From Rhodothermales bacterium (lineage in GTDB: Bacteria; Bacteroidota; Rhodothermia; Rhodothermales; UBA10348), in NCBI GenBank assembly GCA_028284865.1, contig JANQQV010000023.1:1-64000 (forward strand): a DNA stretch of 64,000 bases, written 5' to 3'. Of this stretch, positions 47,920 through 61,563 are shown one piece after another (position 1 is the stretch's first letter; each line of letters starts with the position of its first letter). The notes under the pieces are model-generated. The model was not told the DNA's origin. It saw only the letters and a list, made by a program, of their open reading frames with translations, and searched no databases. Position numbers and translations under genes: made by a program.

Positions 47920-49278
47920 TTACTTGTCCCGGTTCTTGATTTCGACCGAGTTGCCAGCTTCTTCAGAAACCTGAGCGTCAAAACGCTCCAGGGAACGACG
48001 GACCGACTCCCGCTGCGTCTGCAGCAGATCGTTGGGCAGATCGCGCATCATGCGAGCGCGGATCGGATCCACGACATTGGCTTCGAGAGAAATGACCAGC
48101 TCTTTCTGGGTCACACTCTTCTGGGTGCGGCCGAAGATGTAGCGGAATCCGAAGAACCATTTCGGCATGTCCTTCAGGATGGGGACGCCGCGACGAGAGA
48201 TGGACTCCTCTGTGCTGTACAGACCACCTATCACGGTCTGCTCGCCGTCGAGCATCAACAACTGGGTATTGGCCAGGCTGCGATCAATAGTCGGACCCGT
48301 GGCAGAAGGCCGGCTTCCGGACTTCTCGACTTTCACCTCCAGGTGAAGGAATTCGGCTACGGGAGCTCCGAGCGTATCTGCAAGTGGCTGTTCGATCAGA
48401 GTCGGAGTGACCTCGATGATGATCCCCGTCTTGAAATACTGGGTCGCGATGTTGCCAAACGTATCACGGATCTGGACCGGAACGTCCGAGCCGATCTGGA
48501 TATCGCCTTGTTCTCCGCTCTGCACCGTCACGGACGGGTTGGCGACTGTCTCTCCAACACCGGTGGCTTCGGCCAGACGGAACAGGGAGTTCAGATTCTT
48601 GAAATCGATCTGGCTGGGGGCCTCGATAACGTCTTCCATCCCTTTGAAGAGGTCATCCGTCTTCAACAGGAAGGTCAGCTGGTTTTCTGAACCGCCGCCT
48701 GAAGACGATCCGCCACCGCCTGTCCCACCGGTTGAGCCAAAAAGGACACTCCAGTCGATGCCCGAATCCTTGGCCTTCGTGTGGTTCAGCTCGAACAGAA
48801 CAGCTTTGATTTCAATCTGGCGCGTATCCAGGGTAGCTGGGGCAAGCGTGCTTCCCTCGGAAACACCTCTGTCTGTACCCGTGGCCGCATCGGCGTCCAG
48901 AATCAAGTCCTCTACGACTTTCTGCTGGATCATGAAGTAGCGCTCGGTCTCACGGTATTCCAGATCGTTGTACTGGAGAACCAGCTCAAGCGCATCCAGA
49001 AAGTGCATTCCCGAAATGGAAATGCCGATCGGGTGATCCCGGGTATCCGGATCCACCAGTGTTTTGCCGGCAACCCGCTCAAAAATGGGATTCAGATAGT
49101 CTGTAAACCGGTCAAATGGCGTCGAGGGCAGGAAAGACACCAATTGATCGGGTGGGATGTAAGCGCGAACCTGGCGCTGCTGCGCCTGTGCGGAGGATGA
49201 AGTGGCGACCAGGCCGATCCAGCACATGCTGGTCAGCAACAGGATCTGCCCCATCCGTTTCCAAGTCGTTCCATTCAT
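47920..49278 (-). CDS. Secretin of a type IV pilus/type II secretion-like system
   Basis: The 452-residue protein has a signal peptide (ending SAQAQ), a short N-domain (about 35-125, LNPIFERVAGKTLVDPD, ISGMHFLDALELVLQYN), a Gly/Ser-rich loop (GGTGGGGSSSGGGS, about 195-208) and a C-terminal secretin domain (GVGETVANPSVTVQSGEQGDIQIG, DGEQTVIGGLYS, RRGVPILKDMPKWFFGFRYIFG). The last segment is the diagnostic VPxLxDIPxLGxLF equivalent. It would form the outer-membrane ring. It has only a minimal N-terminal part, shorter than GspD or PilQ. It is the fourth gene of the operon starting at 53607. Confidence 0.9.
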   Translation of the reverse strand: MNGTTWKRMGQILLLTSMCWIGLVATSSSAQAQQRQVRAYIPPDQLVSFLPSTPFDRFTDYLNPIFERVAGKTLVDPDTRDHPIGISISGMHFLDALELVLQYNDLEYRETERYFMIQQKVVEDLILDADAATGTDRGVSEGSTLAPATLDTRQIEIKAVLFELNHTKAKDSGIDWSVLFGSTGGTGGGGSSSGGGSENQLTFLLKTDDLFKGMEDVIEAPSQIDFKNLNSLFRLAEATGVGETVANPSVTVQSGEQGDIQIGSDVPVQIRDTFGNIATQYFKTGIIIEVTPTLIEQPLADTLGAPVAEFLHLEVKVEKSGSRPSATGPTIDRSLANTQLLMLDGEQTVIGGLYSTEESISRRGVPILKDMPKWFFGFRYIFGRTQKSVTQKELVISLEANVVDPIRARMMRDLPNDLLQTQRESVRRSLERFDAQVSEEAGNSVEIKNRDK

Positions 49279-49300
49279 GATGATGCCTCTCTGCCCCGGT

Positions 49301-50302
49301 TCAATAGTTTCTTGCTGGTGACAGCTGTACGTTTCCGCGGGCCTGGTTGTACAGCTGGTCCAGGTCCATGCTCAGCTCGATTCGCTCAAGGATGCCTCCC
49401 TTGTTCAAGCTTGCAATGACCTTTCCCTCTCTTGGATCGACGGAAATCACCTGACCTAAATAGACCGGGTCGCCGATTGCTACACTGAATTCCTCGTCTT
49501 CCCAGATCAGGACTGCCCGATCGCCGACGATGGAAACGAGCGTGGCTTCCGCCATGTCCAGCAGGCCTTTCGTATTGGGAGGAATATTCTCAAGGATGAG
49601 TGGTGTGAAGGGATCGCTTGCCGCCCGTGGAGCCGGCAACACGTGGGCCGGGACGTTTGGCAGGGATGTAGACATGTCGGTAGCGCTGAAATTCAGGCTC
49701 TGCGGTGCTCCTTCAGCTGAATCCGATGCACTAAGCCCTACAGCGCCTCCGAAATAGGCGTGCAATTCGAAGGTGAAGCTGACCATAAGGTCCATGCGCT
49801 TCCCTCCGGTCAGCGGATCGTCAGAGATCACTTCCGAGTGATCCAGTTCAAGTTCCTCGATGCGGAACAGCTGACGGTCATTCTCGATGCTCCATACCAG
49901 TTCATAAAGCGCATCGAAATCGCCTCGTCCATCGACCTCAAAAACGTATCGATTGAAGTCATCCGTCTCCGCCAACTCGTCGAATGACACATTGAACACC
50001 TCGAAGCCATATTCGGAGTGATCGTTCATGAAGCGGATGACTTCTTCTGAACCGAGCGTGCGGGGAACGACTTTGTAGCGTGCATTCCATCGCGTAACGA
50101 CACTGTTTGCAACTCCCTCGGAGTCTCCCATTTCGGCCATGAGTGAAGCCAGTTCGGCCTGCTTCATGCGCGCCACCTGCTCGGCCTTTTCCAGGCGCTC
50201 CAGCTCATCAGGCTGCATGAAGTAGGTGGCGTAGATACCGCCGCCAGCCGCGAAGAGCCAGCAAACGGAAAGGATGACCAGGTTCTGGATGAGATTCGAC
50301 AT
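49301..50302 (-). CDS. PilO/PilP-like alignment protein
   Basis: The 333-residue protein has one membrane helix (LVILSVCWLFAAGGGIYATYFM, about 8-29), a coiled coil (DELERLEKAEQVARMKQAEL), a ferredoxin-like region (about 100-190) as in PilO/GspM, and a C-terminal beta domain (about 255-333, AEATLVSIVGDRAVLIWEDEEFSVAIGD, GKVIASLNKGGILERIEL) resembling PilP/GspC homology regions. This points to a fused alignment subunit that bridges the inner-membrane platform and the secretin. The ATG at 50300-50302 has a strong GGAGGA site. It is 4 nt after the PilM-PilN fusion gene. Confidence 0.8.
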   Translation of the reverse strand: MSNLIQNLVILSVCWLFAAGGGIYATYFMQPDELERLEKAEQVARMKQAELASLMAEMGDSEGVANSVVTRWNARYKVVPRTLGSEEVIRFMNDHSEYGFEVFNVSFDELAETDDFNRYVFEVDGRGDFDALYELVWSIENDRQLFRIEELELDHSEVISDDPLTGGKRMDLMVSFTFELHAYFGGAVGLSASDSAEGAPQSLNFSATDMSTSLPNVPAHVLPAPRAASDPFTPLILENIPPNTKGLLDMAEATLVSIVGDRAVLIWEDEEFSVAIGDPVYLGQVISVDPREGKVIASLNKGGILERIELSMDLDQLYNQARGNVQLSPARNY

Positions 50303-50306
50303 GGAA

Positions 50307-52241
50307 TTATCCTCCAGCCTCGGTTGGTTCACCGGTCGACAGGACGTCTTCCGGACGCAGAATCGCTTCTCCCGACTCAACGGGCTCAGCCGTCGCTTCC
50401 GACAGAGGCTGCTGATTGAATTGTCCGCTCGCGATTTCCGCAGCGTGCTCACGCAGGTAGTATGCGGCGTCGGGAAGACCGCGATGAATGAGCATGGTCA
50501 TCTGGAATTCGAAGACCGGGACTCCACGAATCTCCGCGTAAGTGATCTGCTCAATAATGGCTTCGGCTCGCGAAGCAAATTCCACGATTCGATTGCGATC
50601 GAGAGCTGTTCCAGTCATGACCAGCTCGCCGTCGCCTTCCTCTCCCCAGCTTCGAATCCAGAGCCCATCTACTTCGCCCGTGTTCGCGGCAGTGCGCTCG
50701 AGTGCGCGACTCCACACATCACTGCCTACCAGCAACGAGTCCAGTACATCGAGGGCTTCAACGAAGCCATTGGAACGCATGCGCAGACTGTCTATCCGGG
50801 ATTGCAGATCGCCTGCGTCACCTGAAATGGTCTCCTCAGGATAGTTTCGCAGCTCGAAGCGAACCATCTCGATCTCGTGACTCTGCGCGAAGTAGCGTTG
50901 TACGAAAAACAACGTCGTGCTGAAAAGGATGAGGATCATCGCCGCCACCGGCCACGAGAAAGGCAGGGTGAACTTGCGACCGCGAAGCTGTGGATCCAGG
51001 AGCGACGTCTCAGGAAAAACGGATTCCCAGAGCTCATCGCGGACCAGGCGAAGCCCGGCCAGAATGGCCAGCAAGGTTTCCGTCTGCAGTGGATCCTTTG
51101 ACACCTCCTCAAATGGAGGCATGATGTGACGCAGCAACGTGATGGTCGAATCAGGGAAGACCATCTCGAGTCGTTCCCGAATGGCGGTTTCTGATTCGTC
51201 GCAGAACAGCAGGATCCGATCCGAATCGCCGGCTCCAAACTCATCGTACATGAGCAGGATGCGACTGCAGATTGTGTCTGTCGGGTCAAATGCCGTGATG
51301 GAGCGGAGTGATTCGTAGTGAACGAGCTCCTGCCCTACCATGAACATGACCAACGTATCGTCAGCACCCACGCGGATCACGACCGACGTTTCTTCTTCAT
51401 GCTCGGGATCGTTGCTGATCGGCTCTGCGGATGCCGTCTCATTCATCACTTCGGCAACAGCATCGTAGCGATACTCAGCCAACAGGGATGCACGAGCGGC
51501 TCCCAGAAGCAAACTGACTTCGTTGTCAAGCAGAGCGACACCCGGGAACGGACGCTTACGATTGCGAATCGCCTTCAGGGACGGGGTGACCGGTTCATTC
51601 GACTGGGAATAGAGAGCCAATCTGGCTTCTTCCTTCCCATTGAAATCGAACAACGGCAAGAATGCTACCTGATGATCCTCGATAGCTGGATTGCTCTTCT
51701 GAAGCTGCTTGATCAGCGCTTCCCGGGTGTTCGATTTCTTCTTGGACTTCTTCTTGGCTTTCTTGCCATCCTTCGCTGAGCCGTCTTTGGACTCTGCATC
51801 GGCTTGCGTAATCGAAAAGACCTCTGACCCGAGGTAATCTGAGGGAAGCGCAAACACGACGCGGACATTTTCATATCCGGCATCCGCGCACTCGGAAACG
51901 ATATCCTGGATCTCCAGATCACACGGCACCGCCAATTGGGTCGGTGCCATGAGTTCGGAATCCATGCCTTCCTCGACAGGGAGATCACCAAACTCGGAGG
52001 CCAGGAACATGCCAGCGTTCACGCCGCTGTCCTCTGTAGCCTGGAAGGAGACATCGCTCGGGATGTCGTCCTGGATTTCAGGGGCCTCGACGGCCATCAT
52101 ATCGACGCCGGCACGCTTGCGTACAAACGTCCGCAATACGACCGGACCTGTTGCCGTGTCGTGCAGCAATACGGCCTGGATGCGCCGACTCGACGGCGCA
52201 ATCGCCAGGATGAACTCGCTCTTTGTGCTGTACTTCAACAT
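50307..52241 (-). CDS. PilM-PilN-like fusion protein
   Basis: The 644-residue protein starts with an actin-like fold similar to PilM/GspL (SEFILAIAPSSRRIQAVLL ... NVRVVFALPSDYLGSEVF). A highly basic insert (KKAKKKSKKKS, about 160-170) follows. One membrane helix (WPVAAMILILFSTTLFFV, about 412-430) leads to a PilN-like periplasmic part with coiled coil and a small alpha/beta domain (LWIRSWGEEGDGELVMTGTALD). In most systems PilM and PilN are separate proteins that bind each other; here they appear joined, as in GspL. The C-terminal 45 residues are acidic and low complexity. It is in an operon with the PilT-like ATPase (8-nt gap). Confidence 0.82.
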   Translation of the reverse strand: MLKYSTKSEFILAIAPSSRRIQAVLLHDTATGPVVLRTFVRKRAGVDMMAVEAPEIQDDIPSDVSFQATEDSGVNAGMFLASEFGDLPVEEGMDSELMAPTQLAVPCDLEIQDIVSECADAGYENVRVVFALPSDYLGSEVFSITQADAESKDGSAKDGKKAKKKSKKKSNTREALIKQLQKSNPAIEDHQVAFLPLFDFNGKEEARLALYSQSNEPVTPSLKAIRNRKRPFPGVALLDNEVSLLLGAARASLLAEYRYDAVAEVMNETASAEPISNDPEHEEETSVVIRVGADDTLVMFMVGQELVHYESLRSITAFDPTDTICSRILLMYDEFGAGDSDRILLFCDESETAIRERLEMVFPDSTITLLRHIMPPFEEVSKDPLQTETLLAILAGLRLVRDELWESVFPETSLLDPQLRGRKFTLPFSWPVAAMILILFSTTLFFVQRYFAQSHEIEMVRFELRNYPEETISGDAGDLQSRIDSLRMRSNGFVEALDVLDSLLVGSDVWSRALERTAANTGEVDGLWIRSWGEEGDGELVMTGTALDRNRIVEFASRAEAIIEQITYAEIRGVPVFEFQMTMLIHRGLPDAAYYLREHAAEIASGQFNQQPLSEATAEPVESGEAILRPEDVLSTGEPTEAGG

Positions 52242-52248
52242 GCGTGTG

Positions 52249-53607
52249 CTACTTGGCCAATTGCTGGAATCGGCGCTTGTTGTTGGCGTGGTCCAAAGCC
52301 ACGTCCGGGGTGATCAGCCCCTGACGCATCAGGCGATAGAGATCCTGTTCGAGTGTGATCTGGCCGATATTCCAGCCCTCCCACATCATCTGATAGATCT
52401 CGTTGGTATTGTCATTCTTGATGGCAGCGCGAGCCGAAGGCGTCATCCAGAGCACTTCCTTCGCGAGGATGCGACCACCACCTACTTTGGGCAGCAGTTT
52501 CTGGGAGATGATGCAGCGCAGCACATCAGCCAGTCGGTTGCGCACTCGGCTCTGTTCTTCTGAAGGGTATTCGGCAATGATGCGATCGATGGACTCTACA
52601 GCGCTGGACGTATGCAGCGTTGAGAACACCTTGTGGCCCGAGTCGGTAATCTCGAGGGCAGCCGAAATCGTGGACGGATCGCGCATCTCTCCGATAACGA
52701 CGATGTCAGGATCCTGGCGAAGGGCCTGGACGATGCCTTCCTTGAAGGTCGGGACGTCCTGTCCTACTTCACGGTGACGGATGATGCACTTGCGACTCTC
52801 GTGGACGTACTCGATCGGACGCCCAATGATGATGCAGTGGCCGTGTACATCGTCGTTGTTTGCGTCAACGATGGAATCCAGCGTTGTCGATTTTCCGGAT
52901 CCGGTGACACCGGTTACCAGCGTGAGACCATCGCGCACGTGCCGGAATTTCAGGCCTTTCTCGATGCTTGGATGAAATGCGAGGCTCTTGAGTGAGCGGA
53001 TGTCAGCGGTGATGGCACGCATGTTCAGTGCGAGATAGCCCATATCGAGATACGCCGTCGCACGGAATCGTTGGCTGCGGATCCCTGCGCCCTCCTGAAG
53101 CTCATAGGAGAAGTCGGCCGAGTTGCTTTCCATGAGTGCGTGCATTCCGCGCTTGCTCAGCAAACTCATGATCAAAAGAGATCCTTCATCAAGTGAGAAT
53201 CGCGGAATGTTCAGGTCGGGCCGCTTTTCACCATCAATCCTGAACCAGATGAAGCCGCCAGCGCTGGCACCGCCAAGGTCTATGTCCGACGCACCGTTCG
53301 TGGCCATTCTTCCCAGGAAGGAGTCCATGTAGCGGCGTAGCGAAGCCTTGTCGCGGGAGTCGATTTTTGAAAGCTTTTCTGCTTGGTGGCGAATACGGTC
53401 GATGCCAACCAATCCGCCTGGAGTGCTTTCAGCAATTGTTTGAACAAAAGCAGGGAGGTCCGTCATTTGTGCGTAGGAAGAAGAACGGGATGGGGCCCGC
53501 CCAAGTGCTCCATTTTGCCTGCGATTCTCTCCACGACGCGATGTGCCCTCCTTCACGGGAGCGCCTGATTCGGTTCGGTTCGAAAATCGAATGTTGCGTG
53601 TCGCCAT
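52249..53607 (-). CDS. PilT-like secretion/retraction ATPase with altered Asp box
   Basis: The 452-residue ATPase has a Walker A GVTGSGKSTTLDSI, Walker B DIVVIGEMRD, His box VFSTLHTSSAVESIDRII and the PilT-like C-terminus QITLEQDLYRLMRQGLITPDVALDHA. The Asp box, usually TIEDPIEFVH, reads IIGRPIEYVH, losing the acidic pair. The first 60 residues are basic and disordered. The ATG at 53605-53607 is chosen since the sigma-28-type promoter lies just upstream (53666-53690) and earlier starts would precede it; ATG 53466 is an alternative. It is the only motor ATPase in the window and heads the pilus operon. Confidence 0.9.
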   Translation of the reverse strand: MATRNIRFSNRTESGAPVKEGTSRRGENRRQNGALGRAPSRSSSYAQMTDLPAFVQTIAESTPGGLVGIDRIRHQAEKLSKIDSRDKASLRRYMDSFLGRMATNGASDIDLGGASAGGFIWFRIDGEKRPDLNIPRFSLDEGSLLIMSLLSKRGMHALMESNSADFSYELQEGAGIRSQRFRATAYLDMGYLALNMRAITADIRSLKSLAFHPSIEKGLKFRHVRDGLTLVTGVTGSGKSTTLDSIVDANNDDVHGHCIIIGRPIEYVHESRKCIIRHREVGQDVPTFKEGIVQALRQDPDIVVIGEMRDPSTISAALEITDSGHKVFSTLHTSSAVESIDRIIAEYPSEEQSRVRNRLADVLRCIISQKLLPKVGGGRILAKEVLWMTPSARAAIKNDNTNEIYQMMWEGWNIGQITLEQDLYRLMRQGLITPDVALDHANNKRRFQQLAK

Positions 53608-53665
53608 CTTCTTCGGTAGTGGCACCTGCGGTGCTATCTGTATACGAGACTCCTTACATCGGACG

Positions 53666-53690
53666 TATCGGCTGACGGTGCCTTCACTTA
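53666..53690 (-). promoter_or_regulatory. Sigma-28-type promoter of the pilus machine operon
   Basis: On the minus strand TAAG (53690-53687) is followed after 14 nt by GCCGATA (53672-53666). The FliA/WhiG consensus is TAAA-N15-GCCGATAA. The first gene of the operon (PilT-like) starts about 59 nt downstream. This copy has a spacer one base shorter than the other four. Confidence 0.75.
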
Positions 53691-53739
53691 AGCGAAAATG
53701 CCCCCAAGTGCAGGTGCCACAATGCATCCAGAATGCACA

Positions 53740-53770
53740 ACGCGCCCGCGGCCAGAGGCCGCGGGCGCGT
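53740..53770 (-). terminator. Strong GC hairpin after the subtilisin lipoprotein gene
   Basis: A perfect 14-bp stem (ACGCGCCCGCGGCC / GGCCGCGGGCGCGT) with a 3-nt loop lies 60 nt after the protease stop and 50 nt before the pilus operon promoter. After it the minus strand reads TGTGCATT, so the U-tail is poor, but stem strength and position fit a terminator. Confidence 0.65.
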
Positions 53771-53829
53771 CAAATCTTGTGGAGAATCCCATCCGATTGG
53801 ACCGATTCTCCGGCGATGTATGGCCAGGA

Positions 53830-55149
53830 CTAGTTCCCTACCCAGACAGAGCGTCGCGTGGTTGCACGGGCCGCATTACGGACCGACTTGCGTGCATCCC
53901 GCTTCAGGGCACGGGCCACTTCACGCGGGCTAGCAGTCGGATGCTGCGCCAGATAGAGCGCTGCGGCGCCCGTCACGTGGGCAGCTGCGAGCGAAGTACC
54001 CGACATCACGGAGTAGTCGTTGCCAGGTGCCAGGGAGAACACATCCTCGCCGGGTGCCTGAAGGTCCACGAGTGCGCCGTAGTTCGACCAGGGCGAGAAC
54101 ACGTGATTACGATCGTGCGAACCAACTGTGATGGCATCAATGACGTGGGCTGGCGTGAATTTGCGAGCCGCATCACCAGCATTCCCTGCTGCCACCACAA
54201 CGGTGATACCGGCATCGATAACCGAGCGAACAGCGTCGTCCAGGGCAGTGCGCTCCCAACCCACTTCTGCACCGAGGCTGAGGTTGACCACGGCCGGTTT
54301 GTCTGGATTGGCATTCTTCCATTCCAGAACGTCTTCCAGAGCGGCAATGACGTAGGTATCGTCACCGAATCCATCGTTATCGAATACCCGATAGTTGTGG
54401 ACACGAGCTCCAGGCGCAACACCAACGATGCCACCGTTATCGTCCTTGGCTGCGGCAATACCCGCGATGGCCGTTCCATGCCCATCCACATCTTCGGTTG
54501 AACCGGAGAATGCATAATCACGGGAATCAACGACGTTCAAGTCCGGACTGGAGACACCGGTATCGACTACGAAAATGTCGATATCGACTTCACCCTGTCC
54601 GTCACCGGAGACAGACCAGCTTGCTGGTGCGCCGACATCCGTAATGGACCAGGGCAAACGCTGCGTGGTACCTGCCATGCTGCGCTGTCCCGGGGCAGAC
54701 TGAACCGGAAATACCGGCTCAACCCAGGCAATCGTCTCGTCCTGCTCCATGAGTGCCAAGATCTCATCGAGATACTCGGTGGACACCCATAGTGAGTAGC
54801 CGTAGAACGTATTGGTGAACTCGTAGCGATCGACAACCTCATACCGATCGACGACCTCGTAACGATCAACGACTTCGTAACGGTCAACGACTTCATAGCG
54901 ATCGACCACTTCGTATTGGTTTACAATGCGATAGGGATCGATGGCGAAAACGATGGCTGTTTGCTCACCATACTTGCCCGCAGCCTTGATGGCCTGGTCA
55001 AACAGATGAGCGTTGCGGATCTTCGGGGTGTTTTCGGATGCTTCTTCCTGTTGCGTGTTGACTACCTGATCAGCGCAACCGGTCATGATCACCATTGCCA
55101 GCAGGGCGACGGGGATCCGGTAAGCGAAGCGTTTGAGGAGTTCAGACAT
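53830..55149 (-). CDS. Subtilisin-family (S8) lipoprotein protease with RYEVVD repeats in its propeptide
   Basis: The 439-residue protein has a lipobox (LAMVIMTGC, Cys25). Residues about 65-152 look like an I9 inhibitor/chaperone propeptide (AIVFAIDPYRI, then FYGYSLWVSTEYLDEIL, TIAWVEPVFPV) into which five YEVVDR repeats (79-110) are inserted. The S8 catalytic domain follows with Asp196 (FVVDTG), His224 (DGHGTAIAG), oxyanion Asn323 (AAGNAG) and Ser386 (SGTSLAAAHVTG). It is probably anchored to the outer membrane and self-processed. The ATG at 55147-55149 precedes the signal; the sigma-28-type promoter at 55232-55257 links it to the pilus genes, so it may process pilin-like or surface partners. 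Confidence 0.9.
   Translation of the reverse strand: MSELLKRFAYRIPVALLAMVIMTGCADQVVNTQQEEASENTPKIRNAHLFDQAIKAAGKYGEQTAIVFAIDPYRIVNQYEVVDRYEVVDRYEVVDRYEVVDRYEVVDRYEFTNTFYGYSLWVSTEYLDEILALMEQDETIAWVEPVFPVQSAPGQRSMAGTTQRLPWSITDVGAPASWSVSGDGQGEVDIDIFVVDTGVSSPDLNVVDSRDYAFSGSTEDVDGHGTAIAGIAAAKDDNGGIVGVAPGARVHNYRVFDNDGFGDDTYVIAALEDVLEWKNANPDKPAVVNLSLGAEVGWERTALDDAVRSVIDAGITVVVAAGNAGDAARKFTPAHVIDAITVGSHDRNHVFSPWSNYGALVDLQAPGEDVFSLAPGNDYSVMSGTSLAAAHVTGAAALYLAQHPTASPREVARALKRDARKSVRNAARATTRRSVWVGN
54820..54915. repeat. 18-bp (6-codon) repeats encoding YEVVDR, five copies
   Basis: Five consecutive hexapeptides (Y-E-V-V-D-R) plus a sixth decayed copy (YEFTNT) are encoded on the minus strand. The copies differ at synonymous third positions, which suggests the protein sequence has been selected after the repeat arose. 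Confidence 0.9.
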
Positions 55150-55231
55150 GACAGAGTCGAGTGTCTGGTGAAGGGAAAATGGATGTGATCGGTTTGTGGA
55201 CCGATCGGGGCGGTAGTCCATTCATGGTCAG

Positions 55232-55257
55232 TATCGGCGGGCTGAATAGCCGTCTTA
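55232..55257 (-). promoter_or_regulatory. Sigma-28-type promoter of the subtilisin lipoprotein gene
   Basis: TAAG (55257-55254), 15-nt spacer, GCCGATA (55238-55232) on the minus strand, matching TAAA-N15-GCCGATAA. The ATG of the protease lies about 83 nt downstream. Confidence 0.8.
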
Positions 55258-55306
55258 AGCCGCCCTCCTACCTGATTGACCCACACAAATGCTGTTCGCA
55301 ACGGAA

Positions 55307-55336
55307 GAGGGCGCGCGGCTTTCGCCGCGCGCCCTC
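55307..55336 (-). terminator. Hairpin terminator after the first SDK-repeat gene
   Basis: A perfect 13-bp stem (GAGGGCGCGCGGC / GCCGCGCGCCCTC) with loop TTTC lies 28 nt past the stop. The minus strand continues TTCCGTTG, a modest U content. The core GCGCGCGGC-TTTC-GCCGCGCGC is shared with the terminator at 57900-57927. Confidence 0.7.
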
Positions 55337-55363
55337 ACTTCGGGTACACCGGGTCAGCACTGA

Positions 55364-57778
55364 CTACTTGGGAGTGTCGCCAAACAGCTCCCTGGCATTG
55401 CGGATGGCCGTGCCGTTGGCCAGTCGCGAACCGGATTTCTGAATGCCCTCTCCCGCGTCTCCAACCAATCGTTCCATGGTTTTGCTGGACGTCTGCATGA
55501 GCTGGCGGGCTTTCGGCGTTCCGTCGGCCATGTCGAGTTGCTCCAGCATGTCCTTCAGGCCTTTGAGAGCAGAGCCGTTATAGGAGACCACCGATTCATC
55601 GAGCATGATGAATGTGATACCAGACCCCTCTGCATCCCCATTCTCATTGGACTGCGCACAATCACCAGAATTGTCCCAAGTGACATCGCCATACCACTGT
55701 GCGTCGTTCGCCCAGCCGGAATCATCCCACTCTTCCCAGTCGGATTTCTTGTTCGATTTCCCGGACTTCTTGGACGACTTCTCAGATGAATCGTACCACT
55801 TTTTACTGGATTTCCCGGACTTGTCCGACTTGTCCGACTTGTCGGATTTATCGCTCTTGTCCGACTTGTCGCTCTTGTCTGATTTCTTGCTGGACTTCTT
55901 GCTTGAGCCGCTGCCCGGGGTCAAGAGCACGGCTTCGACGAACAGACTGAATGCCTTGCTTGCCGACATCGTGACTCCGCCTCCCAGTCCAGCCATGTTG
56001 AGCCCATGAGGATCGCTATCGGCATGTCCGAAATCCTTGTCTGATTTCTTGCTGGACTTATCTGACTTGTCAGACTTATCGCTCTTGTCAGACTTGTCGG
56101 ATTTGTCGGATTTGTCGGATTTGTCGCTCTTATCAGACTTATCCGACTTATCGCTCTTGTCGGATTTATCTGATTTATCCGACTTGTCGCTCTTGTCCGA
56201 TTTACCGTTGCGCTTGCGTTTACCCCACTTACTCTCGCGCTCTGTCCAGTCCGAGTAATTGTCATTGTCATCTTCGGATACACACAGCGTGTCATCACCC
56301 GAATATGAGGATCCGTTCTGCGCAATCCACTCACTGGCATTGACAAACGCTTCGTTCCGGTCGCAGGTGTTCACGCCATCTTTCGGCTTCCAGTGGTGAT
56401 ACACACTCAACTCGTACAGGAGCTCGTCATCGTCAGCGTCGAAAACCTGGATGGTCAACGAGCCGTTGCGATTGTGCACGTCGTCTTGCACGTCGCTTGG
56501 TTTTGACGGCGCAAGAGCGCACAGCGATGTGAACGTGTAGGTGAAGATCTCCAGATCGCGCGGATCAATCGTCAGGTCCAGTGACTCGGTGGAGCTACCC
56601 GTGTAGGTGGTGTGGCCGACTTTGATCTGATAGGATCCTGCGCTGTTGTTCGAATTGATGGTTTTGATGCGAACATCCTCATCAACCGATCCCATCACGT
56701 TGTCCCAACACAGTCCGCCTTTCTTGCAGCCTGCACTGAGTACATCCACACCTTTGGTGTCGTACTTGTCGTCGTACTTGTGCTCGTGATAGATCTCCCG
56801 CTTGCTTTCCGGATAATCAAAGACGTCCACATCAAAGTGACCTCCAGGTAGCCCCCGATCAGACTCATCGATGGGATCTGGCTCCAGATGGCCACCTGAA
56901 TCCTGACCGTCGACGATCAACGCGCCGTCGATCATGGACTGATGCTCCATCTTGAAGTTGGAGTCCTTACCACTCTGATAAACGATTCCGTGCCAAACAG
57001 CATTGTCCATGAAGGTGATATCCCCTTCAACGAACAGGGCGCCGTATCCCTGAAATCCCCCTTGCAGCACCAGATCTCCAGTGATCTGTACGACAGCAGG
57101 TGCAATCTGGCTACCTACGTTGTTTTCTTCGTTCCAGGTCTGGTTCTCTGACACATTGAGCCGGTTGGGACCGGCGTAGTCCTTGAGGGACGAGCGCAGG
57201 ACGGCCATTTCGATGTACGGGTCGCCTTGGATGACATCCCCGGAACCGCCGTAGCCCGTGATGTGTGCGGGTTCTTCGGAAAAAGACTCGAATGCAGGTG
57301 AGTTGGTAGCCAGCAGGCCGTGCACGTGGGGTCCTGGACCAATCCCGCCTTGATCAAGGCCGCTGATTCGGGATTCATCCTCCAGGGAAACGCTCGTGAT
57401 GGGTGCCATGATCGTCACGGCATCGAGAACGGTCTGGATGTCCCGCGAAACGGTACCTATGATTTCATACTCGTGATCACCGTACTTCCCGACCGCAATG
57501 ATCGTGACGGTGCCATCTTCTCCATCCACGGCTCCAATGTCGTAGCGAGCCTTGCCGTACTGCACGTCCGTAGCAACACTGCGATAGGACTCGAAGCTCC
57601 TGCGGACTTTTGAACTGACAATGTTGTAGGCGCTGACGGCGGTCTCGCGGGCGATGACTTCAGACTTGTACTCCGCTTCTACCTGCGCCGATGCCAGGTC
57701 GCTCTGCGTTCCGGCCATGTACATGGATCCCAGCGAAAGCGTGGTCGCCATGACGAATACGAGGACTCCCTTACCCAT
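55364..57778 (-). CDS. PilX-like pilin-associated protein with Ser-Asp-Lys repeat tracts, copy 1
   Basis: The 804-residue protein begins with a pilin/PilX-like hydrophobic segment (GKGVLVFVMATTLSLGSMYMAG) without a clear prepilin peptidase site. Then come a helical stretch (YKSEVIARETAVSAYNIVSS), a parallel-beta region resembling PilX C-terminal or bactofilin-like folds (GDLVLQGGFQGYGALFVEGDITF), a Cys-containing domain (SAGCKKGGLCW), and low-complexity tracts: 16 consecutive SDK units (residues 527-574) and a second Ser/Lys-rich tract of 55 residues with seven SDK units (625-679). A final Trp/Asp-rich segment (WEEWDDSGWANDAQWYGD) and a helical tail follow. It is a tandem paralogue of the next gene. 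Its sigma-28-type promoter is at 57825-57850. Function unknown; a structural pilus tip or surface filament component is inferred. Confidence 0.82.
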   Translation of the reverse strand: MGKGVLVFVMATTLSLGSMYMAGTQSDLASAQVEAEYKSEVIARETAVSAYNIVSSKVRRSFESYRSVATDVQYGKARYDIGAVDGEDGTVTIIAVGKYGDHEYEIIGTVSRDIQTVLDAVTIMAPITSVSLEDESRISGLDQGGIGPGPHVHGLLATNSPAFESFSEEPAHITGYGGSGDVIQGDPYIEMAVLRSSLKDYAGPNRLNVSENQTWNEENNVGSQIAPAVVQITGDLVLQGGFQGYGALFVEGDITFMDNAVWHGIVYQSGKDSNFKMEHQSMIDGALIVDGQDSGGHLEPDPIDESDRGLPGGHFDVDVFDYPESKREIYHEHKYDDKYDTKGVDVLSAGCKKGGLCWDNVMGSVDEDVRIKTINSNNSAGSYQIKVGHTTYTGSSTESLDLTIDPRDLEIFTYTFTSLCALAPSKPSDVQDDVHNRNGSLTIQVFDADDDELLYELSVYHHWKPKDGVNTCDRNEAFVNASEWIAQNGSSYSGDDTLCVSEDDNDNYSDWTERESKWGKRKRNGKSDKSDKSDKSDKSDKSDKSDKSDKSDKSDKSDKSDKSDKSDKSDKSDKSSKKSDKDFGHADSDPHGLNMAGLGGGVTMSASKAFSLFVEAVLLTPGSGSSKKSSKKSDKSDKSDKSDKSDKSDKSDKSGKSSKKWYDSSEKSSKKSGKSNKKSDWEEWDDSGWANDAQWYGDVTWDNSGDCAQSNENGDAEGSGITFIMLDESVVSYNGSALKGLKDMLEQLDMADGTPKARQLMQTSSKTMERLVGDAGEGIQKSGSRLANGTAIRNARELFGDTPK
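55742..55906. repeat. Second Ser/Lys-rich tract of SDK protein copy 1 (seven SDK units plus SSKK variants)
   Basis: This 165-bp minus-strand coding stretch encodes 55 residues made of SSKK, SDK and SGK units, with seven SDK in a row. Ser codons alternate between AGC and TCN, so the DNA is a degenerate 9-bp repeat. Confidence 0.9.
56057..56200. repeat. SDK tract of copy 1: 16 consecutive units
   Basis: 144 bp encoding (Ser-Asp-Lys) x16 on the minus strand, flanked by the basic GKRKRNGK and by SSKKSDK. Units are 9 bp, with synonymous variation between nearly every neighbour (GAC/GAT, AAG/AAA, AGC/TCN). Confidence 0.92.
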
Positions 57779-57824
57779 AACGGTATCTCGATACTATTAA
57801 GAAAGTGAGGGGGTCATCGACTCT

Positions 57825-57850
57825 AATCGGCAGTCGATAAGGCCGTCTTA
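57825..57850 (-). promoter_or_regulatory. Sigma-28-type promoter of SDK gene copy 1
   Basis: TAAG (57850-57847), 15-nt spacer, GCCGATT (57831-57825) on the minus strand. The ATG is about 47 nt downstream. The downstream stretch CGATGA-CCC is shared with the promoter of copy 2. Confidence 0.78.
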
Positions 57851-57899
57851 AATCCAGGGCATCTTTTTCTCGATTCGATCGAATGGGTCCAAATGAAAA

Positions 57900-57927
57900 C
57901 GGGCGCGCGGCTTTCGCCGCGCGCCCG
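57900..57927 (-). terminator. Rho-independent terminator after SDK gene copy 2
   Basis: A perfect 12-bp stem (CGGGCGCGCGGC / GCCGCGCGCCCG) with loop TTTC is followed on the minus strand by TTTTCATTT. It lies 28 nt after the stop, exactly as far as its twin lies from copy 1. Confidence 0.8.
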
Positions 57928-57955
57928 AATTAAACCGTCTTCGTGTAGGATATCC

Positions 57956-60472
57956 CTACTTGATCGTCGGAGATGAAATGGTCGGCGAAGAAATCTTGGT
58001 GTTCACCGACGACTCCAGCTTCGGCTCGTACCCGATCAGATCGCGGGCATCCTTGATCATGTCCTCGTTCGTGAGACGCGTACCCGTTTTCTGCATGTCC
58101 TCGAGGGCTTCCATTTTGTCCATTTCAGCCTGCGTATAGGTCGACTTCCGAGCCGTCTGGGCCATCTGGCGTGCAATCGGCTTGCCGTCCGACATATCGA
58201 ACTCGTTCAGCATGTTCTTCAGGGCTTTCAAAGCCGAAGCGTTGTACGAGATGGTAGCGTCATCAGACATTGTGAACGTGATTGAGGATGAACCGACGTT
58301 GTCATTCTCGTTCGAGCGAGCGCAATCACCAGAATTGTCCCAGTAGATATCGCCATACCAACCGGCGTCGTTGTGCCAGTCTGAATCATCCCAGTCGGCA
58401 TAGTCCGACTTCTTCTGGGATTTGGCTGACTTCTTGGACGACTTGTCGGACTTCTTACTCGACTTGTCGCTCTTGTCCGACTTGTCAGATTTGTCCGACT
58501 TGTCAGATTTCTTGCTGGACTTGTCACTCTTGTCTGACTTGTCCGACTTTTTGCTCGACTTTTTGCTCGAGCCGCTGCCTGGAGCCAGCAACACCGCCTC
58601 GACAAACAGACCGAATGCTTCGGTTGCCGTGATTGTGAGGCCACTGCCAAGACCTGCATTGTTCATGCCGTACGTGTCGCCGTCGGCGCTACCCCAGCTC
58701 TTCTTGCTGGACTTCTTCGAGGACTTGTCGGACTTCTTGCTCGACTTGTCGGACTTGTCCGATTTGTCGGACTTGTCCGATTTGTCGGACTTGTCCGATT
58801 TGTCGGACTTGTCGCTCTTGTCAGACTTATCTGATTTGTCGCTCTTGTCAGACTTGTCGCTTTTGTCAGACTTATCTGACTTGTCGCTCTTGTCCGACTT
58901 GCCATTCCGCTTGCGCTTGCCCCACTTGCTCTCGCGCTCGGTCCAATCGGTGTAATTGTCGTTGTCGTCTTCCGAGACGCACATGTCGTCATCACCCGCA
59001 TATACGGAGCCGTTTTCAGCAATCCACTCGCTTGCGGAAAGGAAGGCTGCCTGACGATCGCAGACGTCACCGTCTTTTTCTTTCCAGTGGTGATATACCG
59101 CGACTTCGTACAGCATATCGTCGCTGCTCGCGTCAAACACCTGCACGGTGAAGGCACCATTGCGACTATCCGTGTCATCCTGAACGTCACTCGGCTTGGA
59201 AGCGGCCAGCGAGCACAGAGATGAGAAATCGAATGTGAAAATCTCCAAATCGCGTGGATCTACGGTGAGATTCAGTGACTCGGTCGTGCTTCCTGTATAG
59301 GTAGTCCCACCCGCCTTGATTTGATATGTACCTGAGCTCAAGCCGGCATTCATTGTGCGAATCGTCACATCATCAGTGACTCCACCCATAACCTGGTCCC
59401 AACACAGACCCGGCTTTTTACAACCTGCGCTCAGGATATCGATGCCAGTGACATCGTACTTGTCGTCATACTGGTGCTCGTGATAGATCTCCTTGGAGCT
59501 GCCTTCCTCGTCGAAAATATCAACGTCGAAGTGTCCTCCGGGAAGCCCACGATCCATTGGGCTGATTGGAGCGGGATTGATCTGATCACCGGAGTCAGTG
59601 CCGTCCATGACCATGGCGCCGTCAATCATGGAGTCGTCCGTCATGCTGAAATCCACATCGGATCCAGCTTGGTACACGACACCGTGCCACGTCGCACCGT
59701 TGCGCATCGAGAAGTCGCCTTCCACAAACAGGGCTCCATACCCCGTGAAGTCTCCTTCCAGTACCAGATCACCTGTCATCTGGACGATGACGGGTGAGCC
59801 AATGCTACCCATACTGTTGTCTTCGTTCCAGGTCGCGTTTTCGGAGACCACCAGACGGTTGCCACCAGAGTACTCCTTGATTGAACTGCGCAGGTTGGCA
59901 ATTTCGATATACGGATCGCCCTGAATGACATCACCTTCCCCACCACTACCCGTGACGTGAGCACCTTCATCAGCGAAAGCATCATAGGCCGGCGTGTTCG
60001 TTGCCAGGACGCCATGGACGTTCGGACCTGAACCGGCACCACCGCGGTCCAAACCCGTGATCAACGCATTGCCACTCATATCGACATCGGCAATCGGTGC
60101 CATGATCGTCAATGCATCCAGGACGGTATCTGCATTTCGGGAAACTGACCCAATGATCTCGTATTCGTGGTCCCCGTACTTGCCGACAGCGATAATGGTA
60201 ACCGTCCCATCGTCAGCCTCAACGGCTCCGATGTCGTACTTCGCTTTCCCGTACGCTACGTCCGTGGCAACGCTACGATAGGAATCGAAGCTGCGACGGA
60301 CTTTCGAGCTGACAATATTGTAGGCGCTCACGGCGGTCTCGCGCGCAATGACTTCCGCCTTGTAATCGGCTTCGTTCTTGGCGTTTTCGAGTTCGTTTGC
60401 CGAGCCGGCCATGTACATGGCTCCCAGAGAGAGCGATGAGGCCATGACGAAGATGAGGACTCCTTTACCCAT
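57956..60472 (-). CDS. PilX-like pilin-associated protein with Ser-Asp-Lys repeat tracts, copy 2
   Basis: The 838-residue paralogue of the previous gene shares its whole layout: N-terminal hydrophobic segment (GKGVLIFVMASSLSLGAMYMAG), the helix YKAEVIARETAVSAYNIVSS, the beta region (GDLVLEGDFTGYGALFVEGDFSM), SAGCKKPGLCWDQVMGG, 17 consecutive SDK units (526-576), the AFGLFVEAVLLAPGSGSSKK bridge, a second 55-residue Ser/Lys tract (635-689), the Trp/Asp segment and a helical tail. It adds about 30 C-terminal residues (ISSPTISSPTIK ending). The two proteins look like subunits of one surface structure. Its sigma-28-type promoter is at 60520-60545. Confidence 0.82.
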   Translation of the reverse strand: MGKGVLIFVMASSLSLGAMYMAGSANELENAKNEADYKAEVIARETAVSAYNIVSSKVRRSFDSYRSVATDVAYGKAKYDIGAVEADDGTVTIIAVGKYGDHEYEIIGSVSRNADTVLDALTIMAPIADVDMSGNALITGLDRGGAGSGPNVHGVLATNTPAYDAFADEGAHVTGSGGEGDVIQGDPYIEIANLRSSIKEYSGGNRLVVSENATWNEDNSMGSIGSPVIVQMTGDLVLEGDFTGYGALFVEGDFSMRNGATWHGVVYQAGSDVDFSMTDDSMIDGAMVMDGTDSGDQINPAPISPMDRGLPGGHFDVDIFDEEGSSKEIYHEHQYDDKYDVTGIDILSAGCKKPGLCWDQVMGGVTDDVTIRTMNAGLSSGTYQIKAGGTTYTGSTTESLNLTVDPRDLEIFTFDFSSLCSLAASKPSDVQDDTDSRNGAFTVQVFDASSDDMLYEVAVYHHWKEKDGDVCDRQAAFLSASEWIAENGSVYAGDDDMCVSEDDNDNYTDWTERESKWGKRKRNGKSDKSDKSDKSDKSDKSDKSDKSDKSDKSDKSDKSDKSDKSDKSDKSDKSDKSSKKSDKSSKKSSKKSWGSADGDTYGMNNAGLGSGLTITATEAFGLFVEAVLLAPGSGSSKKSSKKSDKSDKSDKSSKKSDKSDKSDKSDKSDKSSKKSDKSSKKSAKSQKKSDYADWDDSDWHNDAGWYGDIYWDNSGDCARSNENDNVGSSSITFTMSDDATISYNASALKALKNMLNEFDMSDGKPIARQMAQTARKSTYTQAEMDKMEALEDMQKTGTRLTNEDMIKDARDLIGYEPKLESSVNTKISSPTISSPTIK
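58406..58570. repeat. Second Ser/Lys-rich tract of SDK protein copy 2
   Basis: 165 bp encoding 55 residues: SSKK blocks alternate with runs of three and five SDK units, then SAKSQKK. It has the same length as the matching tract in copy 1 but a different internal order of blocks. Confidence 0.9.
58745..58897. repeat. SDK tract of copy 2: 17 consecutive units
   Basis: 153 bp encoding (Ser-Asp-Lys) x17, one unit more than the copy 1 tract, in the same place after GKRKRNGK. Units vary synonymously. Confidence 0.92.
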
Positions 60473-60519
60473 GGTGGTGCCCCAAATGAGGGATTGTAGT
60501 TGAAGGGTTCATCGGTTGG

Positions 60520-60545
60520 AATCGGCCATGCGATACCCCGACTTA
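60520..60545 (-). promoter_or_regulatory. Sigma-28-type promoter of SDK gene copy 2
   Basis: TAAG (60545-60542), 15-nt spacer, GCCGATT (60526-60520) on the minus strand. The ATG is about 48 nt downstream. It begins 50 nt after the stop of the small pilin-like gene, so the duplicated unit contains its own promoter. Confidence 0.78.
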
Positions 60546-60594
60546 AGCCTTCCAGCAGGAATCCGTACAGTCTGCAAAGACCCGCTCAGGCCGC

Positions 60595-61170
60595 TCAGGA
60601 ATCGAGCGCTGGCGGCCGGACCGTAATGCCCCAATAGCTCCGGAAGAGATCCATATCATCCGCATCTCCCATGCCATAGACATTGATGGCGCGGACGCGT
60701 AGCAGTCTTGCCGACTCCACGGATCCGGTCGTACTTCCTGACTCGTCGAGCATGGTGATGGAAAAGGCCTGCAAGGTTGAAGAGCCTCCTCCAGCCGCTG
60801 CGTCGTCTTCGGTCCGGAAAAGCCGATAGAGCTGCACTTTTTCGCCATCCACATCCACGACATCTCCCTCTTCCAGCGTGTACGAAACCAGCATGTCGAC
60901 ACCCATTTCGTCTTCGCGCCAGAATGAGAATTCGGTCGTTTGGCCGTCGTCATTCGTCTCGATTGTCTCGATGGTGTCATCCGTTCCGTCTCCGACCAAC
61001 AACAGGTCGTCTTCCAGGAAGTCGGCCAGGTTCAGGGTCTGCACTTTTGCTGCGTAAGCGACCGTCTCTTCGATGGCTGCTCGCTGTGCATTCAGATTCG
61101 TCGCAATGACGAGAAGAAGGACAGCTCCCGATACGAGGATGGACGCTATGTGATCAAGAAGAAACTGCAT
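60595..61170 (-). CDS. Small pilin-like membrane-anchored protein
   Basis: I do not recognise a named family. The 191-residue protein has one N-terminal helix (ASILVSGAVLLLVIATNLNAQ, about 9-29) followed by a helical stretch (RAAIEETVAYAAKVQTLNLADFL) and an acidic beta-rich domain with Thr/Asp-rich loops. This is the lollipop shape of pseudopilins, but no prepilin peptidase motif is visible. It ends RSYWGITVRPPALDS. It starts 4 nt after the stop of the companion gene upstream and shares its promoter. Confidence 0.72.
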   Translation of the reverse strand: MQFLLDHIASILVSGAVLLLVIATNLNAQRAAIEETVAYAAKVQTLNLADFLEDDLLLVGDGTDDTIETIETNDDGQTTEFSFWREDEMGVDMLVSYTLEEGDVVDVDGEKVQLYRLFRTEDDAAAGGGSSTLQAFSITMLDESGSTTGSVESARLLRVRAINVYGMGDADDMDLFRSYWGITVRPPALDS

Positions 61171-61173
61171 CGA

Positions 61174-61563
61174 CTATTCGGAAATGACGCGCGTGAGTGT
61201 CACGAGAGCAACGGTATAGCGATCGCTGGTCGCCTGAATGGCTACCTCTTTATTCGAGGTCTCGCTCTCCGAAGGCGTTCCATCGTCATCGACAAACTGA
61301 ACGCTGATGGCCAGGGTGAATTCGATGTCGCCATTGTGGACTTCAAACTCTGCGTCGATCTCATCCCCATCCCAGTCTTCCAGATCATCCCAGTCCGTGG
61401 TCATGTCGATGACCTCCAGCTGTTCGACCACGAGGGCATTTGCCATCAGCTCGAACTCCGTCCGATAGGCTTCATCGTAGGCCTGCATCTGGGACGTGTA
61501 CTGGTTGATGGCTGCCAGTGCGGCAATCATCATGGCCAGGAATGCCATCAGGGTCTGACTCAT
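61174..61563 (-). CDS. Small pilin-like membrane-anchored protein
   Basis: The 129-residue protein has an N-terminal hydrophobic helix (MAFLAMMIAALAAINQYTSQ, about 6-25) running into an amphipathic helix (AYDEAYRTEFELMANALVVEQL), then an acidic beta domain (DDLEDWDGDEIDAEFEV, FTLAISVQFVDDDG). Shape and size suggest a minor pseudopilin without a standard processing site. It is the first gene of a two-gene unit under the sigma-28-type promoter at 61604-61629. Confidence 0.72.
   Translation of the reverse strand: MSQTLMAFLAMMIAALAAINQYTSQMQAYDEAYRTEFELMANALVVEQLEVIDMTTDWDDLEDWDGDEIDAEFEVHNGDIEFTLAISVQFVDDDGTPSESETSNKEVAIQATSDRYTVALVTLTRVISE

Follow-up and report, generated by a model that had tools for sequence, protein, structure and literature searches.

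Ser-Asp-Lys tracts in a loop inserted into the predicted beta-solenoid of candidate ComZ-like tip pilins from a Rhodothermales bacterium

Two tandem paralogous genes in the 64,000-nucleotide stretch of marine Rhodothermales DNA analyzed here (the window) encode pilin-like proteins in which long tracts of the tripeptide Ser-Asp-Lys (SDK) occupy, in the predicted structure, a large loop inserted into a beta-solenoid. We propose, with a probability of about 0.6, that both are ComZ-like tip (minor) pilins whose SDK arms tether a small module. Judged by predicted fold, a ComZ-like tip pilin is a known kind of protein, and what would be unusual here is the polyampholyte loop, together with a leader peptide of the usual type not being found. 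A pilus-tip protein would have been rebuilt by a long, probably disordered loop put into a rigid solenoid, the loop chemistry turning over among genera (SDK, poly-Asp, or none) while the insertion site stays.

Both genes, and all genes and protein segments given below in window coordinates, lie on the minus strand. The 838-aa protein P0002 (60472-57956) and its tandem paralogue, the 804-aa P0001 (57778-55364), are 70% identical over the first 518 aa, and homologues of P0002 were found in 29 of 60 related genomes. As claimed by the sequence-only reading, the paralogues carry 16 and 17 unbroken SDK units and a second tract with SSKK blocks; the interval that it gave, 55742-58897, covers the tracts but not the genes, which run from 55364 to 60472. 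In P0002, (SDK)17 (aa 526-576, 58897-58745) lies in a first arm that also contains SSKK blocks (aa 523-592, 58906-58697), and in P0001, (SDK)16 (aa 527-574, 56200-56057) lies in the equivalent arm (aa 524-582, 56209-56033). About 40 residues beyond the first tract begins, in both proteins, a second arm rich in Ser and Lys, made of SSKK and SDK in P0002 (aa 632-690, 58579-58403) and of SSKK, SDK, and SGK in P0001 (aa 622-684, 55915-55727); over the whole proteins, there are eight SSKK blocks in P0002 and five in P0001. The arms enclose a 39-residue island (P0002, aa 593-631, 58696-58580, containing AGLGSGLTITATEAFGLFVEAVLLAP; P0001, aa 583-621, 56032-55916, by paralogue alignment), which is ~64% identical between the paralogues as counted by hand on alignment A3, a value resembling the 70% of the folded part, and which in P0002 includes a short helix predicted by AlphaFold at aa 616-628. 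Chance is not an issue for the tracts, since the (SDK)5 DNA pattern had 29 matches in the window's genome and 0 with the reversed control. Profile scans of P0001 and P0002 against Pfam and NCBIfam gave no useful match and no pilin family, and in a literature search, the matches listed concerned the peptide Ac-SDKP, none dealing with bacterial proteins that have SDK repeats. The Bacteroidota O-glycosylation motif (D-S/T-hydrophobic) is absent within the SDK repeats.

The zwitterionic character first ascribed to the tracts stands insofar as charges are mixed, but the arms are not neutral: net charge is +2 and +7 in P0001 (second arm over aa 622-660) and +7 and +11 in P0002 (second arm over aa 632-685), on an acidic body that carries -55 and -66, respectively. 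The SD repeats of staphylococcal Sdr proteins are acidic stalks adjoining an LPXTG anchor. The contrast drawn with them holds true, as Lys occurs in every unit and the net charge is positive. What the Sdr surface adhesins have in common with P0001 and P0002 is a long spacer of low complexity that contains Ser and Asp, whereas the window proteins differ in the SDK unit, the net positive charge, the position within a loop, and the export machine; LPXTG is absent from the C termini of P0001 and P0002.

Synonymous codons do vary from unit to unit, each long tract spelling Ser with five different codons, and the first tract of the P0001 gene has no codon periodicity. Codon identity at lags of 1 to 6 units was mostly close to the shuffled expectation, p 0.01 being reached in 2 of 24 tests. 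This variation has an exception in the first tract of P0002, where an exact 18-bp unit is present in ~3 copies and the longest repeat, of 50 nt, was unmatched in 200 synonymous shuffles; by its sequence, this repeat is a recent local duplication. In the N-terminal alignment of the paralogues, 361 of 518 residues are identical, yet only 61 of 175 fourfold sites are (35%). Although these sites are near saturation, the tracts measure 16 and 17 units, and such matched lengths make selection on the protein likely, provided that the tracts predate the gene duplication. The earlier preference for protein-level selection over recent slippage is thus backed.

The AlphaFold model of P0002 was built on an alignment of 7 sequences and has a mean pLDDT of 49; both values, like the low-confidence head and the weak Foldseek E-values (best, 3e-3), count against the tip-pilin model, even with ice-binding proteins and ComZ ranked first by Foldseek. 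The predicted pilin-like head (aa 1-114, 60472-60131) comprises a long N-terminal helix (residues 3-60) and four strands (68-111), with a local pLDDT of only ~30 to 54, and its residues 31-114 match the Thermus competence pilin 6qvf by VIA-align with a Z of 8.8 (rmsd 1.5 over 83 residues). Attached to this head in the model is an ice-binding-protein-type beta-solenoid (aa 115-290, 60130-59603; pLDDT mostly 53-90, and 77-90 at aa 211-290; well modeled over aa 121-290), which aligns to 5uyt_A with a Z of 15.5 (rmsd 2.7 over 167 residues), some two dozen further VIA-align rows lying near a Z of 14. The DUF3494 ice-binding proteins (5uyt, 4nu2) thus share the beta-solenoid fold predicted for P0002 at a Z of 14 to 15.5, whereas the sequence match is negligible: PF11999 reached an E of 0.013 in 1 of 19 relatives and had no match in P0001 or P0002. 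DUF7305 (PF23981) was matched by three of the 19 relatives (best E, 5e-7), P0001 and P0002 having no match. In the tract regions, the model has a pLDDT of <40 and no secondary structure, which suggests that the arms are disordered; the regular rod once envisaged is not predicted.

Ice-binding proteins align over P0002 from aa 115 to 744-750 (Z, 14 to 15.5; rmsd, 2.7 to 3.0), and the strand behind the tracts falls within this alignment, so that in the model the post-tract strand completes the solenoid. This last strand and the following helix (aa 731-750, 58282-58223, ITFTMSDDATISYNASALKAL; pLDDT ~90 at 731-740) have their equivalent in P0001 at aa 721-741 (55618-55556, ITFIMLDESVVSYNGSALKGL) in alignment A3, and the final motif, x-I-x-Y-S/N-x-x-A-L, is C terminal in relatives with and without tracts. 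The 350-aa homologue of a congener has almost nothing from the second-last rung to the final motif; the central beta-rich domain (P0002, aa 314-462, 59533-59087; AlphaFold strands, fold matches weak with Z <5), arm 1, the island, and arm 2 are therefore best read as an insertion. According to the model, both tracts belong to one loop inserted ahead of the last solenoid strand. A stalk joining domains in series, as had been suggested, does not fit this arrangement, in which the tract sits in a loop within the beta-solenoid and the chain goes back to the solenoid.

ComZ of Thermus thermophilus (6qvi) consists of a pilin-like head and a large solenoid, has an ice-binding protein as its closest structural relative, and was proposed as a DNA receptor at the pilus tip (PMC6561018). 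As predicted for the window proteins, it combines a pilin-like head with a large ice-binding-type beta-solenoid; it is also large for a minor pilin, has small pilins in its vicinity, and lacks the usual pilin sequence motifs. Short linkers insert the ComZ solenoid into the pilin sheet ahead of the final strand, whereas the predicted solenoid of the window proteins comes after the head and is itself broken by the huge loop with the SDK arms. The whole P0002 model matched 6qvi with a Z of 9.2 over 246 aligned residues at an rmsd of 15, and thus supports two matching domains and no single superposition.

The genomic context points in the same direction. Two small pilin-like proteins with hydrophobic N termini lacking a leader (129 aa, 61563-61174, with no Pfam match; 191 aa, 61170-60595) precede the two tract genes, as they do the tract gene in many relatives. 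Behind the tract genes follow an S8 subtilase (55221-53830; PF00082, 2.5e-40), a PilT-like pilus ATPase (53727-52249; TIGR01420, 3.7e-94, slightly below the family cut-off), a putative PilM/PilN-like protein of 644 aa (52241-50307; gene order and one transmembrane segment), a putative PilO/PilP-like protein of 383 aa (50452-49301; gene order, the likely start being downstream of the ORF start), and a PilQ-like outer-membrane secretin (49278-47920; PF00263, 6.8e-26; TIGR02515, 4.3e-23). The PilM/PilN-like and PilO/PilP-like proteins had no family match in the Pfam and NCBIfam scans. In many relatives, the small pilin-like pair stays together with the genes for the tract protein, subtilase, and pilus machinery, in the same order. 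The PilC platform protein and PilB ATPase are encoded on contig C1 (G000:C1:19034-24504, L134), behind two small proteins starting with MGQQQLLLLV, which are probably the major pilins. The description of P0001 and P0002 as pilin-like is thus backed by both operon and predicted fold. The homologous loci in named records belong to Rhodothermales or Bacteroidota metagenome-assembled genomes; plasmids, considered as a route of spread, gave no match, and neither did defense systems.

No class III leader peptide was found in these pilin-like proteins: all 19 aligned homologues start with MGK directly ahead of the hydrophobic stretch, and the pilin-like proteins of both 47920-61563 and the PilB/PilC locus are leaderless. 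The Peptidase_A24 profile likewise had no match in the window's genome (97.7% complete) or, overall, in 26 of the 27 family genomes; it matched in 9 of 114 genomes of the order and in 12 of 14 control genomes. A divergent prepilin peptidase overlooked by the profile is possible. In the portions of a type IV filament survey consulted here, MSH loci are without a peptidase of their own and may share that of another system, and those portions hold no description of absence from a whole genome (PMC6668835); in Cytophaga, another member of the Bacteroidota, the type II secretion-like cluster includes a Peptidase_A24 gene (PMC5553014). A text search of the literature for leaderless pilins returned nothing relevant. 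In this bacterial group, the type IV pilus-like machinery thus seems to do without a prepilin peptidase of the usual kind.

We propose a model in which the N-terminal helix and small sheet would insert the protein into the pilus, whose cap P0001 and P0002 would probably form together with the 129-aa and 191-aa proteins. A rigid solenoid of the ice-binding-protein type would jut from the pilin head and, before its last strand, give way to the large loop composed of the beta-rich domain, SDK arm 1, the 39-residue island, and SDK/SSKK arm 2, after which the chain would come back to complete the solenoid. The arms, of ~60 to 70 and 40 to 60 residues, would act as disordered, strongly hydrated, alternately charged tethers resisting collapse and aggregation, and could let the island, perhaps the beta-rich domain too, reach far out from the tip and move freely, so as to present it to a putative ligand.

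The pattern among relatives bears on how specific the SDK sequence has to be. The search for (SDK)5 covered ~540 Bacteroidota genomes in total. It matched 3 of the 244 genomes from the class, and the 394 genomes sampled from the phylum yielded the same three, always in the pilin-like protein; a fourth match in the phylum sample, G362, reads AGG-GAC-AAA, that is, Arg-Asp-Lys with identical codons, and was rejected. The genus g3 version of this protein (G008, G016, and G023) carries SDK/SKK/SAK tracts beside a VCHIPPGNP..HLxHGD module, while in genus g10, the corresponding region has poly-Asp and Gly-Asp tracts with a net charge of -15 to -58 around a different small module; other relatives are tractless. 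Asp-rich runs replace SDK in the g10 homologues L043 (7933-10269), L051 (1731-3860), and L046 (6279-8285), with up to ~30 consecutive Asp in L043. The VCHIPPGNP..HT...AHLxHGD module adjoins low-complexity tracts in relatives from g3 and g10 (L053, 5458-6888; L055, 130-1701; L056, 7104-8648; L043, 7933-10269) and is not present in the window proteins. The window pair clusters in the tree with tractless relatives of g6 and g1, g3 being sister (support, 94/91), which implies two tract gains or one gain plus losses. As far as the sequences go, relatives with S-x-K arms, poly-Asp, or no tract speak for a spacer that need only be hydrophilic rather than for a code specific to SDK, and hydrophilicity being all that the window's and g10 lineages have in common, a spacer is also favored over a specific binder. 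The long unbroken SDK runs count against this, their regularity exceeding what a plain spacer needs.

In the genomes searched, runs of at least five SDK units were found only in this pilin-like family, but S-x-K tracts occur in unrelated proteins of the same bacterial family as well, which counts in part against the sequence-only reading. With a looser S-x-K pattern, the window's genome gave a match in a 2503-aa protein, and G016 in the 2497-aa relative of that protein; G023 had a match in an 866-aa protein and G025 in a short frame resembling a lipoprotein. A 1270-aa TSP3-repeat protein of the window's genome has a similar tract. A T9SS type A sorting domain was recognized by model match at the end of the 2503-aa and 1270-aa proteins, and on visual inspection the G016 and G023 proteins have a tail of this kind too. 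These T9SS-type proteins are large and contain TSP3 or beta-propeller regions (L125, 3-7514; L126, 5383-9195; L127, 5569-8169; L128, 1506-8999); their S-x-K tracts precede the C-terminal sorting domain and are in most cases followed by a helical-looking region. Copying of DNA between the tracts was considered and rejected, the words common to pilin and T9SS tracts being mostly no longer than in synonymous shuffles; slight excesses occur, such as that of L126 against the first P0002 tract (25 nt). Being found in unrelated T9SS-exported proteins, S-x-K tracts are a family-level style of surface proteins.

This sharing is one reason to ask whether the tract itself binds, its Lys-rich arms attaching to polyanions such as extracellular DNA, lipopolysaccharide, or acidic polysaccharide, or to matching S-x-K tracts on T9SS-exported surface proteins, in which case one sticky module would be common to the cell surface and the tip of the pilus; we consider such binding unlikely but worth weighing. 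Positive arms on a strongly negative body would suit such binding, as would the S-x-K tracts of T9SS-exported proteins of the same genomes, the DNA binding of ComZ (PMC6561018), and the co-occurrence of both kinds of tract (27 family genomes: both in 3, pilin tract only in 1, other only in 1, neither in 22; Fisher p 0.005, kinship ignored), the window's genome being the only one in which pilin-like and T9SS proteins alike have SSKK blocks. However, three of the four genomes with a pilin tract belong to one genus, so that co-occurrence may be inherited, the DNA-binding lysines of ComZ lie between its two domains and outside any tract (PMC6561018), and binding by Lys-rich arms sits poorly with poly-Asp in g10 and with several tractless relatives. 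A more specific proposal, to which we give long odds, is that a lineage-specific S-x-K dialect, common to T9SS-exported surface proteins and to the tip proteins of a leaderless type IV pilus free of prepilin peptidase, forms a sticky polyampholyte module by which the pilus tip would be linked with the cell surface or with matrix. Farther still from our preference, and highly improbable, is binding of mineral or silica by the SSKK/SDK arms in the manner of silaffin or phosphoprotein tracts, to which one is led by the resemblance of SSKK to silaffin repeats; no modification enzymes and no connection to minerals were noticed in the analysis.

The tracts could also lack a function of their own, being repeat expansions that a permissive surface loop tolerates. 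The recent expansion of an 18-bp unit in the P0002 gene and the large turnover among genera are what this would look like, but length and register have been kept despite randomized codons and near-saturated synonymous sites, where neutrality would predict indels or missense changes, and the same tract dialect recurs in unrelated secreted proteins; this explanation thus appears improbable. Very unlikely, in our estimate, is that the proteins are free-standing solenoid proteins of the inner membrane or surface merely sharing the operon: the predicted pilin head and the small pilin-like genes of the operon speak against it, and although neither a canonical prepilin leader nor a GFxxxE motif, a Pfam pilin match, or a genomic Peptidase_A24 is found, the putative major pilins by PilB/PilC on contig C1 are equally leaderless, and a pilin finder missed ComZ too (PMC6561018). 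ComZ-like tip pilins with SDK arms thus remain our preferred reading, and a tract dialect used across two export routes may be a clue to surface adhesion in marine Bacteroidota.

Two smaller features accompany the tract genes. GC-rich perfect hairpins lie directly 3' of both, one behind the 838-aa gene (57926-57901, GGGCGCGCGGC-GAAA-GCCGCGCGCCC) and an identical one behind the 804-aa gene (55334-55309); they are the genome's only two exact copies and are probably intergenic terminators or attenuators. Moreover, hexapeptide repeats stand ahead of the catalytic domain of the S8 subtilase, with five YEVVDR repeats at 54820-54915, and since relatives keep a DRYK(I/V)(V/L) array, the repeat array appears to be a conserved feature of the subtilase.
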